A stretch of DNA of 42,852 nt from an uncultured Candidatus Saccharibacteria bacterium. GTDB lineage: Bacteria > Patescibacteriota > Saccharimonadia > Saccharimonadales > Saccharimonadaceae. Below the pieces are notes generated by a model, which was given only the letters and a program-made list of their open reading frames with translations, was not told the origin of the DNA and ran no database searches. Both the position numbers and the translations under genes were made by a program. Where the stretch lies: positions 1 through 42,852 of the forward strand of contig CANDYU010000007.1 of assembly GCA_947425245.1 (NCBI GenBank), read 5' to 3'. Of this stretch, positions 11,152 through 42,852 are shown piece after piece; within the stretch, counting starts at the first letter, position 1, and each line of letters starts with the position of its first letter.

Positions 11152-12522
11152 CTAAATCAAATCCTCACCATAATGACACGTATCGCTAAGCGTGCAAGAC
11201 TCCAAGTCATCGTCATAGTAGTCGTAAGGAATCGTTCCGACTATAAACTCGATTATTTCGTCTATCAAATCAGTAATCGGCCGATAGTTGTTCGGAGCGT
11301 TAACAGTAATATCCTCGTATCTCAGATCAAAGGCTCCGACCGTCACATAGGAGTTCTCTTCGTAATAGAAATGAATGGTTTGAACCTGATGACTGAATCG
11401 TGAAATCTCGAGGTAGAGGCACAAATCGTCGTCTATATCGATGTCGCTAGCGTCAATCTCGTCGAAATCAGTTGCATCAATGTTGCTTGAGCCAAATTGA
11501 GATGGATATTTATCAACCACGCCATTATAACAATCGAAGAACGACTCGGCGACGTCAGTTTCCGGCAAAGCGTTGATGAAGCCGGCCAAATTAGCCTTGT
11601 TTAAGCTAATTTCATATAGCCCGTTTCCGGATTGAGGATGGTAGGCGGAGATTTTAGACTCAACACTATCGTGATTAATAGTAAATGTGTCAAACTCATC
11701 AATCTCGACAACCTTAATAAATGGCAACTTGCGATATAAGATAGCAAGCTCGTCACCCAGGTCGGCGTTCAAGGCATTAACCGTACAGGTATAGATTTCT
11801 TTAAAACCGTTTGCTTGACTATCACCTAATTCAAGACTGTCAACAATTTCCGGAACTGAGATACGCCACCACTCATTATCGATAACTTCTAACAGACCGA
11901 GTATCTCCTCGAGCTCAGCATAATCGTCCTCACTTAAGCCAAGATTATTGATAGCCTCCATAACCTTGCTGACCTGTAAATATATAACACCGTCCGAGAG
12001 CTGTACTAAACCCAGATCAAGCTCAACAGAACGATTGTTATCGAGAGAGACAGATAGACTGGCGGTTGTAGAGTTGGGGAGATGGTTCGACGAAGAATCT
12101 AAACTCAACCAAAGTCGAGGAGAAGGTATGCCGTCACCAAGAGGTAAAACGGCAAGATCGCCCTGCACGGATACATTGGAGGCAGACATCAGGTTTGTTA
12201 CTGCATCAAAAGCGACTTTGTCTGGACTGCTGTAAAACCCGAAGAACCAAATGCCGACACAGCCGAGAATCAATATAATTGCGGCAAGAATTGAGAGGAC
12301 GATAATCGGAACATGGCTAGTTTTTTGGTAGCATTGATCTGGCGTGGTGGCTACTTTCGACGATTTGCTAGGTGACACTGATGGAGTCTCTGGCTGCGGC
12401 GTATCACTTTGTGTATTTTGGTCAGTGTTTTGATTTTGGCTTGGCTCCTGCGGTGCAATATTTTGTGCATTATCGCCCGCGTCACCAACGTTGGATGGAT
12501 CTTGGTTTGGGTCTTGGTCCAT
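11152..12522 (-). CDS. Single-pass membrane protein with large extracytoplasmic domain
   Basis: A 456-residue orphan. Residues 1-65 are a Gln/Asn/Pro/Ser-rich disordered cytoplasmic tail, about 71-96 are a membrane helix (VPIIVLSILAAIILILG), and the rest is extracytoplasmic with a strongly acidic Asp/Glu stretch near the end and several Cys. I recognise no family. It precedes the FtsA-like gene in the same operon, so a link to division or envelope assembly is possible but only inferred. An AAGGAGG site fixes the start. The promoter is shared, back to back, with enolase. Confidence 0.65.
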   Translation of the reverse strand: MDQDPNQDPSNVGDAGDNAQNIAPQEPSQNQNTDQNTQSDTPQPETPSVSPSKSSKVATTPDQCYQKTSHVPIIVLSILAAIILILGCVGIWFFGFYSSPDKVAFDAVTNLMSASNVSVQGDLAVLPLGDGIPSPRLWLSLDSSSNHLPNSTTASLSVSLDNNRSVELDLGLVQLSDGVIYLQVSKVMEAINNLGLSEDDYAELEEILGLLEVIDNEWWRISVPEIVDSLELGDSQANGFKEIYTCTVNALNADLGDELAILYRKLPFIKVVEIDEFDTFTINHDSVESKISAYHPQSGNGLYEISLNKANLAGFINALPETDVAESFFDCYNGVVDKYPSQFGSSNIDATDFDEIDASDIDIDDDLCLYLEISRFSHQVQTIHFYYEENSYVTVGAFDLRYEDITVNAPNNYRPITDLIDEIIEFIVGTIPYDYYDDDLESCTLSDTCHYGEDLI

Positions 12523-20109: not shown

Positions 20110-21126
20110 CTAGACATGACGTTTTTTCTTGCGGACGGTTTCGATAAGTTTGGTGACAAGATATTTACTAGGGCTAATGATTAAATCGTGGGCAGGAACA
20201 TACTTAAGCTCTTGGACGCCAAAGCCACGCTTGAACTGGGAAACACCATAAAAACGATGCCAGGTCTCGTCTTCGCCGACGATGCCCCAGAAATTATAAC
20301 GCTTGATTCCCCGCTCGCGGGCATCCTGCATGGCGGCCATATGGAGCAAGGGAGCTCCGGAAAGTTTAGTGCCGAGTTCGGAACTGACACCATAATGGTA
20401 AGAGGCTTCGTTGCCGTAAAAAATCATGAAGTTTTGGGCTAGGATTTCGCCTTGGTATTTTGCAGTATAGAGAACAGCTTCGCCGTGGGGAGCAAAGGCG
20501 GCAAACTGTTTAGTGAGAAAATCCTCAGAAAAGGCGATAAAATGATGGCGACCGGCGGTTTGAAGTTCGATCTGGTAAAATTCATGAATATCGTCGGGGT
20601 TAGTGGAGGTCTCAACTTCGATATCATTTTTCTTGGCCTTACGCAAGGCACGACGAAGACGCTGACGCATGCCAGCAAGGATTTCCTCTTCAGATTTTTC
20701 AAGATTCAAAATACCGGCAAATTCAACTGACAGGTACATTGGGGCGGGCTTCAGACCACAGTTCTGGACAAGTTTCAGGTTCTTTTCTGTACGCTCAAGT
20801 TGAGGGCGGACACGAACGAAGACGCAGTGATTTTGCTCGCCCTGGAGCTTCATGTCGGCGAAAATCGATTGGATAAGCTCGGGGTTTTGCCAGTCGAGAA
20901 TCGGCCCACCAGCAATCGCGAGATGTCGTCCACGCTTGGCGGCCTCGACTACCCCGGCGTAAGCTCCAATAATTCTATCGCCTTCAAGAGCAATACGCCG
21001 AACAACGGTATTGCCACGGCTGCGATAAAACTCATAAAAATCCCAAGATTGCAGAAAATTAGCTTCGGGGTGGCCAGTGATAAAGGTATCCCACTCAGTA
21101 CGATCCTTAGCATCAATGATTTTCAT
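20110..21126 (-). CDS. FemAB/FemX-like peptidoglycan bridge peptidyltransferase
   Basis: A 338-residue two-GNAT-fold protein. FemABX enzymes add amino acids from aminoacyl-tRNA to the lipid II stem peptide. Visible family features: HPEANFLQSWDFYEF, KRGRHLAIAGGPILDW, VFVRVRPQL, a paired-helix arm (AGMRQRLRRALRKAKK), and the C-terminal GIKRYNFWGIVGEDETWHRF block. It is clearly a paralogue of the C-terminal half of its upstream neighbour. The start at 21126 has AAAGGAGC in front and avoids overlap with the upstream gene; an earlier start at 21192 would run into it. The amino acid and acceptor position cannot be predicted from sequence. Confidence 0.88.
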   Translation of the reverse strand: MKIIDAKDRTEWDTFITGHPEANFLQSWDFYEFYRSRGNTVVRRIALEGDRIIGAYAGVVEAAKRGRHLAIAGGPILDWQNPELIQSIFADMKLQGEQNHCVFVRVRPQLERTEKNLKLVQNCGLKPAPMYLSVEFAGILNLEKSEEEILAGMRQRLRRALRKAKKNDIEVETSTNPDDIHEFYQIELQTAGRHHFIAFSEDFLTKQFAAFAPHGEAVLYTAKYQGEILAQNFMIFYGNEASYHYGVSSELGTKLSGAPLLHMAAMQDARERGIKRYNFWGIVGEDETWHRFYGVSQFKRGFGVQELKYVPAHDLIISPSKYLVTKLIETVRKKKRHV

Positions 21127-21151
21127 GATTTCAAGCTCCTTTCCTGTTGTT

Positions 21152-23365
21152 TTATAAATGTCGAATCTTTTTTCGCAAGGTTTCAATGGCAAGATTTAAG
21201 AGGTAGCGACCACGCCGCAAGACAAGATCCTGGGCCGGCAGATATTCAATAATGTCGCCGCCAAAACCAGTTTTAAAAGTGGTCACACCGGCATAGCGGT
21301 GGTGTTTTTGGCCGAGCGGGGCAATCCCCCAAAGGTTATAGCGTTTAATTCCTTGGGCCTTTAGGTCGCGAATCACCTGCCACTGCAGGGTATAAGCTCC
21401 TGGCAATTTGCGTCCCAAATCGGTGGAGGCAGCCTCAAAATATTCAGCTTCCAACCCTGAGACGAGTATAAGTCCATAAGCAATCGGTTCATGTTCACTA
21501 CTTCGAGAGAGATAGATAGTGGCTTGGTCGCCAAAAGCAGTACGCTCTGCCATCAACATGTCTAAGTTTGGTGGAACAAAACCTTGACGCCGAGCAGTGT
21601 CGAGCTGAACTTGATGGAACTCTTGGAATAGCTCCTGAGAATTATTATGTTCGACCGTAATACCAAACTTGTCCTGGCGACGGACTTCGTAACGGGTTTG
21701 GCGACGCATGGCCGCGAGCAGGTCAGTCTCGGATTGCGTAAGATCAAGCATGACGGTATGTTCGGCGTGGAGATGCATGGGTGCAGGCCGTGTTCCAAGA
21801 GTGAATAGCAGTTGCTCATGGTGCTGAGTACGGTTAAGCTGCGGCCGTAGGCGGATAAAGACGCATTTTTCCTGTCGGGCTAGATCGCGAAGACAAGAGA
21901 AGAGGCGTTGGGTGGCTTGATAGTCCTGCCAATCTGTCAGCGGTCCACCAGGAAGCTCAAGATAGCGTCCACGCTTAGCGTTTTTTACAATGGCTAGACA
22001 CCAACTATGCGAACTTTGCAACAGAAAAATTCGGTGTCCGACAAGACGGTTAGTTTCGCCCCAGTTGGGCGACTGGAGAAAATTGGCTTCGGGGTGCTCC
22101 TCGACCATGGCCCGCCAAGCCGTCTGAAGCTTTGGCGAGGTTAGCTCCTCCGAAGAGAGTGGCCCGAGACATTCAATGGCGTCTGGGGCAGAATCTATCA
22201 TATAAGGCTCAATAATCCGGCGAGCCCGATCGAGTTTTCGGGGCGGATACCAAGTCGGCAAATTGATGATTTGTTTAGCAAGACGCACAGTCTCGGGGCA
22301 TTCGCTGTCAGGAAAATTAGCCTCCTTCGCATAGCGGACAGGAGAAACTGGGGTATCATACCAAATTTCATCTAGACGATAACCGGCTTTCCTCAGTTTT
22401 CTTAGTACCTCGTCACGCCGATCTACGAGGTAGAACTCACGCAAAGGACCCAAAGGAGGGTTCTGGAAAAGCTGCTGAAGCTGACGATTGACTAATCCGG
22501 CCTGCCAACCCGGTAATTTTTCGTCAATGTCCAACTTAGCGTCGGCTGACTTCGTAATCCAGTGAAACTTCAAGAGAAGGCCTGTCATAATTTTTTCTAG
22601 CTTGACATGGGCGGCTCCTCGCATCATAGCACCAAAAACTGGATACCAGCGATCACGAAGACGATCGGGGAGCTTAGGGGTATGCTGGGGTTCGGCTAGT
22701 TCCCCCTCAGTTCTCAAGATTGCTGCACCACCTTCAATAGTATCAATAGCCTTACCCTTGCCAAAGGACAGCACCGTAGCATCACCAACTGTACCCATCT
22801 CCCGTCCATCACGATAGAAACGTCCAGCACAGTGAGCAAGATCTTCGACGATACGAATATGGTGCTTCTGGGCGATTTCTTGAAGCTTGGACATGTCAAG
22901 CGGTAGCCCGAGAGTATTCTGGGCTACTATTATACTTACATTGTAGCACAGATTTATTGTTTTGTCAAGACTTTCAAAGTCATATTGAAGAGTTTTGGGG
23001 TCAATATCAACAAAAACTGGGGTGCAGCCAGCAGCTCGGACGGCACGAACTACGGCGATGCAGGTCAGACCGGGGACGATAATGTTAGTTCCCTCTGGGG
23101 CGAGTGCCTTAAAAGCGGCGGCGAGAGCGGAACGGCCGGTATGATAGAGCTGCACTCTTGAAGCTGGATCAGAATTACAATTAAAAGCCAGCGGCTCTTG
23201 ATTCTGATTACCCTCTGCGGGTTTCACTTGAGGTAGATAATGCTCAGCTAAGGTCTGGCGAAGCTGCTGACGTTTTTGTTCGCCGCGTCGTCGACCGTTT
23301 AGAGAAAAGAGGTGACGCAAAGTCTGGCGGGCGGAATAATTTGAGGCTTGGCCGAGAAAAACCAT
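21152..23365 (-). CDS. DegT/DnrJ-type PLP aminotransferase - FemAB fusion
   Basis: 737 residues in one frame. Residues about 60-390 are a DegT/DnrJ/EryC1/StrS fold: YHTGRSAL, PGLTCIAVV, Asp175 in VEDLAHCAG, and the PLP lysine Lys205 in LSFGKGK followed by IEGGAA. These residues suggest an active aminotransferase. Residues about 410-737 are a FemAB-like lipid II peptidyltransferase (HPEANFLQSPNWGE, RGRYLELPGGPLTDW, IRLRPQL, GIKRYNLWGIAPLG), paralogous to the next gene. A soluble PLP enzyme joined to a bridge-forming enzyme suggests that it makes or modifies the residue or sugar used; that is inference. It starts at a TAATG overlap with the hydrolase gene. A promoter-like sequence lies within the DegT domain. 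Confidence 0.9.
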   Translation of the reverse strand: MVFLGQASNYSARQTLRHLFSLNGRRRGEQKRQQLRQTLAEHYLPQVKPAEGNQNQEPLAFNCNSDPASRVQLYHTGRSALAAAFKALAPEGTNIIVPGLTCIAVVRAVRAAGCTPVFVDIDPKTLQYDFESLDKTINLCYNVSIIVAQNTLGLPLDMSKLQEIAQKHHIRIVEDLAHCAGRFYRDGREMGTVGDATVLSFGKGKAIDTIEGGAAILRTEGELAEPQHTPKLPDRLRDRWYPVFGAMMRGAAHVKLEKIMTGLLLKFHWITKSADAKLDIDEKLPGWQAGLVNRQLQQLFQNPPLGPLREFYLVDRRDEVLRKLRKAGYRLDEIWYDTPVSPVRYAKEANFPDSECPETVRLAKQIINLPTWYPPRKLDRARRIIEPYMIDSAPDAIECLGPLSSEELTSPKLQTAWRAMVEEHPEANFLQSPNWGETNRLVGHRIFLLQSSHSWCLAIVKNAKRGRYLELPGGPLTDWQDYQATQRLFSCLRDLARQEKCVFIRLRPQLNRTQHHEQLLFTLGTRPAPMHLHAEHTVMLDLTQSETDLLAAMRRQTRYEVRRQDKFGITVEHNNSQELFQEFHQVQLDTARRQGFVPPNLDMLMAERTAFGDQATIYLSRSSEHEPIAYGLILVSGLEAEYFEAASTDLGRKLPGAYTLQWQVIRDLKAQGIKRYNLWGIAPLGQKHHRYAGVTTFKTGFGGDIIEYLPAQDLVLRRGRYLLNLAIETLRKKIRHL
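22940..22968 (-). promoter_or_regulatory. Consensus promoter inside the DegT coding region
   Basis: Minus strand TTGACA (22968-22963), a 17-base spacer ending AAATCTGTGC, TACAAT (22945-22940); a further TATAAT lies just downstream. It encodes residues 133-142 of the fusion protein and faces the FemAB half and the next gene. Confidence 0.65.
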
Positions 23366-24681
23366 TAGCGTTCCCTCTTTTTTGATGTCGCAGGGGATGC
23401 CTTACGGCCACGAACCTTACGCTTGGCCTTTTCGAGTGGGCTGATTTTCGGAACAGAGGCGGAGGTGATAGCTCCCGACACAATGGGGGCAGGGTTGACG
23501 GAACTTGGCGGTATCGGACTAGCCAGGAACTCGGCCGATGCACCGAGATCAAAAGTATTATGATGCTCTGGCTCAGAAGAATCTTTAGAGGTGGATTTTT
23601 GTTTCAAGGAAAGCGAAGCCGAAGTGATAGCGAGACTAGTCGCGTTCTCTTTCCGGGGCGAGGACTTCAAGCTAGCGGAGGCAGAGGATTTTGTTACATC
23701 AATGTCCGGGACTACGGAGCGTCGGACTTTCTTGAGGTTGGCAGAGGCAGATACCTTAGTAGCATTAGTAGTGCGAGTGACAATCTCTGGTCGCTTGGGC
23801 GAATAGCGGACCGCGGCACCTTCGGCATCAGAAACCACTAGTCCGGTAGTGGGCGTTTTTTCGTCGTTGCGTAAAACTAGCTTTGTCGGCACATTGGGAG
23901 CGACGGAGCTATGCGGACCTTTGCGTTCGAGAACCGGCTCGGGAGCTTTCTTAAGGGCAAGCGAGGCAGAGACGGCAGCAGCGTCGGCGGTGGTAGGCTT
24001 AGGCGGCTTGCCAACAGTGCGATAGATAGCACGAGCCAACTCGGCAGGATGGGAGATGTAAGGGGCGTGCGTCCAACCGGGGAAAAGTTCGAGGGTGCTA
24101 CCAGGGATTTTGGCGTGCATCACCTCGGATTGACGCGGGGGGGTTACGGTATCCTCCTTGCCCCAGAGGATGGAAGTCGGGGTCGTAACACTGGACAAGT
24201 CGAGGTTCTTATCGGAATCAAGCATGTTGGCGAGAGTGCGTTTCATGTTCTCGGGAGCCTTAGCATAGTCGGTAGCTCCGGTGAGCTTATGCCAGACCTT
24301 AGTAAGACCGGGAACTTTCTTCAGGAAGCCGAGACGCTTAGAGATGCTACGCGAGAGGTCGCGTTTGCTATTGTTTTCGTAAACTCCGGCCGCATCAAGC
24401 AGAATTAAGTGTTTGAGCTTGGCGGGATTTTTACTACAGAGATTAAGAAGGATACGACCGCCATTGCTATGCCCCAAAGATACGCTACCATCGGGGATAT
24501 GGCGATCGGCCCATTTAACATATTCCTCGATTGTCCAGACCTTTTTTGAGGGAGAAGTCAGGCCGGGGACATGAAGCATTTCGATTTTAAGACCCTTCTT
24601 TTCGAGATCGGCGATGGTTTTTTCCCAAGGCGAGACCGTATAGGTCCAGCCGTGAATAATGTAGAGCGTAGTTTTTTTCAT
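23365..24681 (-). CDS. Alpha/beta hydrolase with long Ser/Ala-rich repeat tail
   Basis: 438 residues. Residues 1-225 are an alpha/beta hydrolase fold: oxyanion region IIHGWTY, nucleophile Ser72 in GHSNGG, Asp177 in GKEDTVTP, His205 in GWTHAPY. No membrane segment or signal is seen. The remaining 210 residues are low-complexity Ser/Ala/Lys/Pro with recurring SASxxLK motifs (near 238, 312, 335 and 354) and a Lys/Arg-rich end (KRKVRGRKASP). Substrate unknown. The ATG at 24681 overlaps the upstream Mur-ligase-like stop (ATGA); an earlier in-frame start at 24693 is less likely. The position between Mur-ligase-like and FemAB genes suggests a cell-wall role. Confidence 0.8.
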   Translation of the reverse strand: MKKTTLYIIHGWTYTVSPWEKTIADLEKKGLKIEMLHVPGLTSPSKKVWTIEEYVKWADRHIPDGSVSLGHSNGGRILLNLCSKNPAKLKHLILLDAAGVYENNSKRDLSRSISKRLGFLKKVPGLTKVWHKLTGATDYAKAPENMKRTLANMLDSDKNLDLSSVTTPTSILWGKEDTVTPPRQSEVMHAKIPGSTLELFPGWTHAPYISHPAELARAIYRTVGKPPKPTTADAAAVSASLALKKAPEPVLERKGPHSSVAPNVPTKLVLRNDEKTPTTGLVVSDAEGAAVRYSPKRPEIVTRTTNATKVSASANLKKVRRSVVPDIDVTKSSASASLKSSPRKENATSLAITSASLSLKQKSTSKDSSEPEHHNTFDLGASAEFLASPIPPSSVNPAPIVSGAITSASVPKISPLEKAKRKVRGRKASPATSKKRER

Positions 24682-25949
24682 GATAACCCCCATTTCGCTC
24701 GGCGTTTAACGGCGGCTTTTTCGCGTCGAGGCAAGCGTTTGGCGTCTTCTGGGTTTTCGAGGAGCTGTTCAATAATCCATTCGAGATATTGGCTCCCCTT
24801 AAAGATGAGAGTCTCGTCACCAGTCGTATGTTCTTCGATATATTTTAGGGCTTTTTTAGGGTCGATTGTAGTACGAGTCTCAATCCCTAGATCCTTAAGC
24901 CTCGGTGCGGTGTATTTTTTGGTACGACGACCAACCAGGATAACCATCTCGGGCTGGGCTTGAGCGATTAAGTCGGCCAACTTACGATGCTCTTCGCCTT
25001 CGATAGAGCCTTGATCGACAATATCGCCAATAATAAGCCATTTATGGCCGGCATGGAGATTCGCTACCATTTCAAGAATGCTAGTGACGCTGATAATATG
25101 AGCATTATAGCTACTGTCGATGAGTTTAAGACCGTTTTTTCCCTGGAAAAACGAACTGCGGCCTGGAGGCATAGGCAGGTTAGAAAGATCAGTCTTTAGC
25201 GGCACTTCGAGATACTGTAACAAGTCCTCAAGCATCAGGAGCTGGATGGTCAGGTCTTTGGGCTGAGGTTCGGCAAAATGAAAACTTGCGGTATCGAAAA
25301 CAAAATCGGTCCGAGTAGGGTAAACATTATAACGCTTGAGGCGATGACGGTCAACGGCAACGACCTCAGCTTTAATTCCCTTCGTAGCCTCAACCATTAC
25401 CTCGGAGCTAGCATCAATATAGACGCGTTTTTTCGTGTTGGCCGGAATAGTAGAGAACTCATGAGCAATAGCGGCGTCGAGGCTAGGGTACTCACCGGAG
25501 GCGACTTGCGATTCGAATTGTACGGCATGTGAAAGACCGAAGGAAACCCAGAGGGTAACTTCCGGCTTTAGCCAAGTAGCTAAGAACTCAGCTTCATGCG
25601 GGCGCTCGCCATCAATTTCGACTACATAAAACTCGCCCCGGCGTCGATAATAACAGGCACGGATAGGGGCGAGGAGAAATAGTTTTATCCAGCGTAATTT
25701 CGAGCCACGAATACCGGCCATGCCGAGAAGATCGAAGGCGACACCGTAGGCCGAGTTGGCATCATGAGAATAGTGAGCCCGATCGCCAAGTTCAAATTCG
25801 ACGAGATGGAGCATGGTAGTCTTACCAGCTGAGCCGGTAAGAGCAATAATTCGCGGGTGCCAGCGATGCAGGGCAAAACCAGCGAAGAACCGGAAATATC
25901 CGGCCACCACAAAGTAAAATCGTTTTTTGAACTTCGCCGCCAATGTCAT
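24678..25949 (-). CDS. MurF-like Mur ligase lacking the N-terminal substrate domain
   Basis: 423 residues. The Mur-ligase ATP-binding loop TGSAGKTT is already at 38-45, whereas MurF has about 100 residues before it. Here the N-terminus is a short basic, aromatic-hydrophobic helix (YFVVAGYFRFFAGFAL) that may associate with the membrane. The central domain and a MurF-type C-terminal domain follow (PGRSSFFQ, LIDSSYNAHI, IIGDIVDQGS, HRKLADLI). It probably joins an amino acid or peptide to a wall precursor by acyl-phosphate chemistry, but the missing UDP-sugar domain argues against canonical MurF. It is the first gene of the operon, with a leaderless start 6 bases after TATAAT. Confidence 0.85.
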   Translation of the reverse strand: MTLAAKFKKRFYFVVAGYFRFFAGFALHRWHPRIIALTGSAGKTTMLHLVEFELGDRAHYSHDANSAYGVAFDLLGMAGIRGSKLRWIKLFLLAPIRACYYRRRGEFYVVEIDGERPHEAEFLATWLKPEVTLWVSFGLSHAVQFESQVASGEYPSLDAAIAHEFSTIPANTKKRVYIDASSEVMVEATKGIKAEVVAVDRHRLKRYNVYPTRTDFVFDTASFHFAEPQPKDLTIQLLMLEDLLQYLEVPLKTDLSNLPMPPGRSSFFQGKNGLKLIDSSYNAHIISVTSILEMVANLHAGHKWLIIGDIVDQGSIEGEEHRKLADLIAQAQPEMVILVGRRTKKYTAPRLKDLGIETRTTIDPKKALKYIEEHTTGDETLIFKGSQYLEWIIEQLLENPEDAKRLPRREKAAVKRRAKWGLS

Positions 25950-42771: not shown

Positions 42772-42848
42772 GCGGGCGTAGCTCAGTTGTTTAGAGCGCT
42801 TCCTTGCCAAGGAAGAGGTCGAGAGTTAGAGTCTCTTCGCCCGCACCA
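42772..42848 (+). tRNA. tRNA-Gly(GCC) with altered elbow (U19, A56)
   Basis: 77 nt including an encoded CCA. The acceptor stem GCGGGCG/CGCCCGC is perfect. The D stem is GCTC/GAGC, the anticodon stem CTTCC/GGAAG with loop TTGCCAA (anticodon GCC), and the T stem GAGAG/CTCTT. The D loop reads A14 G15 U16 U17 G18 U19 U20 U20a A21, so the usual G19 is U. The T loop reads U54 U55 A56 G57 A58 G59 U60, so the usual C56 is A. The two changes still permit a Watson-Crick 19:56 tertiary pair. It decodes GGC and GGU. Confidence 0.95.
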
Positions 42849-42852
42849 CGAT

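Follow-up and report, generated by a model that had tools for sequence, protein, structure and literature searches.

The tRNA-Gly(GCC) gene that closes the window, as we call the whole 42,852-nucleotide stretch of DNA analyzed here, is an ordinary tRNA-Gly apart from a tertiary pair that is altered throughout the clade: U19:A56 takes the place of the usual G19:C56 elbow pair. The ARAGORN call was exact, and the GCC cloverleaf passed the gathering score of Rfam RF00005 with 69.3 bits (cut-off 29), the third highest score among the 49 tRNA matches of the genome. Direct reading gave the acceptor stem GCGGGCG/CGCCCGC, the D loop A14 G15 U16 U17 G18 U19 U20 U20a A21 and the T loop U54 U55 A56 G57 A58 G59 U60; pairing is intact in all four stems, and the gene encodes its CCA end. 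The canonical bacterial tRNA-Gly(GCC) is alike in cloverleaf, anticodon, position of the elbow pair, G18, U54, U55, A58 and encoded CCA, but has G19:C56, whereas the version of Saccharimonadia has U:A or A:U class-wide. A preliminary description of this DNA had reported the exchange with intact stems, and direct reading, ARAGORN and Rfam bear this out. A sequence or assembly error near the contig end was ruled out because relatives carry the same letters, and decay because the stems are all paired and positions 19 and 56 pair in 141/141 genes of the class. The proposals that both sides changed together with pairing retained, and that this reflects selection rather than decay, agree with the paired stems and the 19:56 covariation across the class.

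Table 1. Coordinates of the features discussed, in the numbering of the window.
Feature	Position	Strand	Basis or remark
tRNA-Gly(GCC), sole GCC copy of the genome; prophage attL	42772..42848	+	ARAGORN, Rfam, contig ends
U19, host side of the phage crossover	42790..42790	+	numbering by D loop AGUUGUUUA
A56, in the stretch common to the phage copy	42828..42828	+	T loop UUAGAGU
att identity segment, anticodon stem to CCA	42798..42848	+	repeated at the ends of C14, C17 and C18
CGAT, first four bases of the prophage	42849..42852	+	continues on contig C14, 55-base overlap
FemAB gene	20110..21192		
FemAB gene, 737-aa ORF	21152..23365	-	DegT/DnrJ aminotransferase-like part fused to FemAB domain
Mur-ligase-C-like gene	24678..25949		

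The altered elbow is a trait of the whole class Saccharimonadia (Candidatus Saccharibacteria), to which the clade was assigned by a named scan of GTDB contigs. We searched 147 genomes of the class for a pattern that fixed a GCTC/GAGC D stem but allowed any letter at positions 19 and 56; 140 of them matched, yielding 141 tRNA-Gly(GCC) genes with either U19:A56 (121) or A19:U56 (20). None of these 141 genes has G:C, C:G or a mismatch at 19:56; since seven genomes have no match to the D-stem pattern, the absence of G:C covers matching genes only. Other Patescibacteria with the same D stem outside the class mostly have G19:C56, and three genomes from two families have A19:U56; the comparison is partial because most genomes of other classes do not match the pattern. 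A Saccharibacteria-type tRNA-Gly with U19:A56 also turned up on a small contig of a genome assigned to a different class of the phylum (G477:C252, L086), through either contamination or transfer. In a further genome (G074, L498), the T loop of tRNA-Gly(GCC) is altered to TTAGGGT and the 3′ strand of its acceptor stem is mismatched, as though the 3′ half had suffered damage; the pattern search found no second GCC copy in that genome.

The genome of the window (882 kb, 22 contigs) yielded 47 extracted tRNAs, of which a single one has the GCC anticodon; the remaining glycine tRNAs are UCC and CCC. By Watson-Crick or standard G34 wobble pairing, GGC and GGU are readable only by this tRNA, which must therefore serve translation, as the preliminary description had foreseen for the case that counting gave one GCC tRNA. 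The same genome holds a second U19:A56 tRNA that had been overlooked, tRNA-Ala(UGC) on contig C20 (8949-9025, minus strand), likewise the sole copy of its anticodon and hence also required for translation. The other extracted tRNAs, read by eye, have G19 and C56, including the strong-codon tRNAs for Pro, Arg-CG, Ala-GGC and Ala-CGC. Across the class, tRNA-Ala(UGC) has G19:C56 outside genus g1 and parts of g11 and g15; in these groups it has A19:U56, or U19:A56 in some g1 members. This amounts to three independent exits from G:C and at least two further changes between A:U and U:A, with pairing never lost. Gene conversion from tRNA-Gly to tRNA-Ala was rejected, as the T-stem and anticodon-stem bases around the common letters differ, so that the two elbow changes look independent. 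Rarer altered elbows occur in Gly(CCC) copies of G041, G140 and G148, in Gly(UCC) of G509 and in Val(GAC) of G511. That tRNA-Ala(UGC), Gly(CCC), Gly(UCC) and Val(GAC) of the clade can carry one counts against the wall-dedicated or dual-use tRNA considered below. A comparable isotype-specific and clade-specific change of near-universal tertiary pairs is the eukaryotic Ala tRNA case, which concerns pairs 15/48 and 54/58, whereas in Saccharibacteria it is 19/56, with Gly(GCC) first and Ala(UGC) second.

The two FemAB genes of the window had led to the proposal of a wall-dedicated or dual-use tRNA-Gly. The genes are real, and one of them, fused to the aminotransferase-like part, adjoins the other, with the Mur-ligase-C-like gene near (Table 1); nothing links them to the tRNA. 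Glycine and alanine are among the commonest amino acids of peptidoglycan bridges (PMC9976931), and tRNA-Ala(UGC) is here changed alike, so that the elbow might mark a tRNA-Gly used by FemAB ligases. We consider this highly improbable, as the single-copy tRNA-Gly(GCC) is the translation tRNA and the ligases do not go with the altered elbow: FemAB (PF02388) has no match in three U:A genomes (G027, G049, G054) and five A:U genomes (G148, G461, G527, G543, G508) and is present in 16/16 G19:C56 genomes tested from other classes. Within genera g11 and g15, FemAB match counts likewise do not agree with the tRNA-Ala state. The non-proteinogenic tRNAs-Gly of staphylococci are also glycine tRNAs with non-standard letters at conserved places, but they are extra copies that evade EF-Tu via changes at 49-65 and 51-63 (PMC9976931). 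In contrast, the Saccharibacterial gene is the sole GCC copy, and 51:63 is G:C in 64/64 distinct genes. Pair 49:65 varies among these genes yet stays paired.

To place the two states on a phylogeny we used a quick one-gene (rpoB) tree of 76 genomes, which gives 14 interchanges between A:U and U:A, or 12 when long branches are left out, at least 9 of them forced by strongly supported branches; some could be transfers of the whole tRNA gene. No return to G:C within the class occurs on this tree. Some pairs of genes differ solely at 19 and 56, among them those of our genome (G000) and G565, and the 76-nt forms of G148 and G112. Among the 64 distinct tRNA-Gly(GCC) genes, four of which have U73 rather than A73 and may not be Saccharibacterial, G:C and A:U interchange freely at the stem pairs 28:42, 50:64, 52:62 and 7:66; all 64 have G:C at 15:48. 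AT pressure is thus no explanation for the elbow, given these stems and a GC content of 47.8% in the window. Were it only as easy to return as to flip, the probability of zero returns against 12 flips would be about 0.5^12 (2 in 10,000), a rough estimate rather than the outcome of a fitted model. An ancestor that happened to fix A:U, followed by neutral compensatory drift, would account for the constant retention of pairing and for A:U as the apparent first step in tRNA-Ala and other phyla. We disfavor such an accident and regard it as rather unlikely, because drift back to G:C takes two transitions and should be easier than the two transversions between A:U and U:A, yet there are 12-14 flips and no return; moreover, G:C is freely used in stems of the same tRNA, and the altered pair was acquired separately by tRNA-Ala and by other phyla.

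Altered elbows are also found beyond the class. The 80 named tRNA-Gly(GCC) hits without G19 and C56 comprise 45 A:U and 35 U:A, with no other combination among them, though nine letter combinations were permitted. U:A is confined among these hits to Saccharibacteria and to MAGs named just bacterium or Patescibacteria; A:U also occurs in uncultured Clostridia, Bdellovibrionota, Labilibaculum, SAR86, Flavobacteriales and Peregrinibacteria. In 25/26 altered-elbow genomes from the named hits it is the sole form found by pattern. A search of 199 genomes of the clostridial MAG's phylum for tRNAs with neither G19 nor C56 and a GCTC/GAGC D stem gave essentially none, only the query genome itself and one noise match, which argues that the altered elbow is not chance. 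tRNA-Ala(UGC) and the tRNA-Gly(GCC) of other phyla acquired the altered elbow independently. A literature search that covered few subscription journals found no A19-U56 or U19-A56 pair by name. On IMG/VR contigs (L171-L250), A19:U56 is common, above all in Arg (UCU, ACG, CCU) and Thr (UGU) tRNAs, and these tRNAs are nearly always Watson-Crick paired at 19:56.

The ribosome contacts the G19:C56 pair in each of the three tRNA sites, the L1 stalk included, and so do RNase P, RNase Z and T-boxes (PMC4810234). Both letters are removed by A:U as well as by U:A, so the change might be an escape from a reader of G19 or C56 such as a tRNA-modifying enzyme (TruB, TrmA, TrmH), an RNase or a T-box. To us this appears decidedly unlikely, since C19:G56 would serve equally and is absent both from the class sample and from the 80 named hits, and since Clostridia with A19:U56 have ordinary T-boxes. 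A T-box link was rejected: our genome has no T-box at E<=0.001 under stricter filters, and some relatives have weak matches below the cut-off.

What the genes show is that pairing at 19:56 is kept and G:C and C:G are avoided, with the letters free. We give about even weight to the reading that this is an ordinary essential translation tRNA in which 19:56 would be selected to stay a two-hydrogen-bond Watson-Crick pair; something seems to keep the elbow hinge weak. The two hydrogen bonds are the simplest property common to A:U and U:A, from which we infer that selection may favor a weaker, more easily opened elbow in tRNA-Gly(GCC). Such an elbow has probably been held since the ancestor of Saccharimonadia, what is conserved being pairing and weakness. 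The codon pairing of glycine and alanine tRNAs is strong, and their small amino acids are bound only weakly by EF-Tu. Given the general principles of tRNA tuning and of thermodynamic compensation in EF-Tu binding, this would make tuning of how these tRNAs are handled on the ribosome (A-site finger, L5, L1 stalk) or by EF-Tu the likeliest cause. Tuning by codon strength or EF-Tu leaves unexplained that phage Arg and Thr tRNAs are commonly A19:U56, and gives no reason why tRNA-Pro and other Ala tRNAs retain G:C. The flips may be neutral compensation inside the weak-pair constraint, or may be aided by phages that import nucleotide 56 while nucleotide 19 stays with the host. A class in which one translation tRNA is always A:U or U:A, with many flips and no return, constitutes a natural experiment on what the elbow gains from its third hydrogen bond.

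The contig stops 4 bases past the tRNA, the cause of which had escaped the preliminary description: the gene is a prophage junction. The last 55 bases of the window contig also open contig C14, C17 ends with the 55 bases that open reverse C18, and C17 and C14 overlap by 51. C14 (L499, 17.35 kb) carries terminase, head-protease and tail genes, and C17 (L500, 14.08 kb) carries portal, tape-measure and tail genes, along with a tyrosine integrase that lies next to a copy of the tRNA's 3′ end. A tailed prophage is integrated at the tRNA-Gly of the window and split over C14 and C17; the window gene is attL and C17/C18 is attR, with the 3′ tRNA end repeated at the far end of the element, as at a phage attB in a tRNA gene. 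The contig breaks in the k=55 assembly graph suggest that the circular form (attP) is also present. The segment common to host and phage starts near base 27 of the tRNA, so nucleotide 56 is phage-derived and nucleotide 19 host-derived. Copies at attR in U:A genomes have A56, and 3′ fragments beside A:U genes have U56. In IMG/VR we found five contigs with only the 3′ half of tRNA-Gly(GCC) beside a tyrosine integrase gene; all five have A56, and no U56-type attP or 3′ half was found there.

These junctions bring in a phage-host lock, which we judge unlikely. A crossover in the anticodon arm would give a tRNA with the host's nucleotide 19 and the phage's nucleotide 56, so that an A56 phage would leave a sound tRNA in a U19 host and A19.A56 in the single essential tRNA-Gly of an A19 host; hosts flipping the pair would escape, and phages would follow. 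The attL position of the window gene, the matching attR and fragment letters and the five A56 halves fit this scheme, and there is documented harm when integration disrupts an essential tRNA (PMC10865867). U:A hosts, however, make up 86% of the sample, so that five A56 phages out of five are expected anyway, and the lock does not explain the missing G:C, which would also shut out A56 phages. Many other tRNAs serve as phage attachment sites and keep G:C, and tRNA-Ala(UGC) was rejected as such a site, as no 3′ half of it was found in IMG/VR, where the one match is a full tRNA. A gene-for-gene form of the lock, in which the host owns nucleotide 19, the phage owns nucleotide 56 and their contest within the weak-pair constraint would drive the double flips, has in our estimate only a slim chance of being correct. 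Neither tuning nor the phage-host lock alone explains everything.

tRNA-dependent lysogeny (PMC10865867) likewise involves a tyrosine integrase, with attB located within a tRNA gene that the host cannot do without. In that system a complete spare tRNA comes with the phage, whereas the Saccharibacterial phage delivers the 3′ half and thereby restores the gene, each partner supplying one base of the tertiary pair. Phages that target tRNAs take over half of a tertiary pair, which would be a simple possible route to lysogeny incompatibility; if the lock were true, an A:U to U:A flip would make lysogeny by mismatched phages harmful.

Further 3′ or antisense tRNA fragments lie downstream of the tRNA at 19/199 distinct loci. 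Seven Saccharibacterial loci (L049, L054, L098, L291, L320, L332, L365) have a direct repeat of about 29-31 nt of the tRNA-Gly end (about bases 47/49-77), 34-135 nt downstream of the gene; such repeats look like scars of further integrations. A small structured element is found downstream of tRNA-Gly(GCC) in L485 (reverse complement, about 125-230 nt after the tRNA start), L491 (3420-3520) and L498 (reverse complement), in which an antisense copy of the variable and T arm is followed by a sense tRNA 3′ end broken by a GC-rich hairpin. Its base-56 letter agrees with the host gene in the A:U genomes G148 and G132. The prophage contigs carry tRNAs of their own: C17 has a long-variable-arm tRNA of class II shape with a CCA anticodon and A73 (about 11912-11995, minus strand), called Trp by ARAGORN and more like Leu or Ser in shape, and C14 has a second, divergent tRNA-Phe(GAA) (2697-2772).
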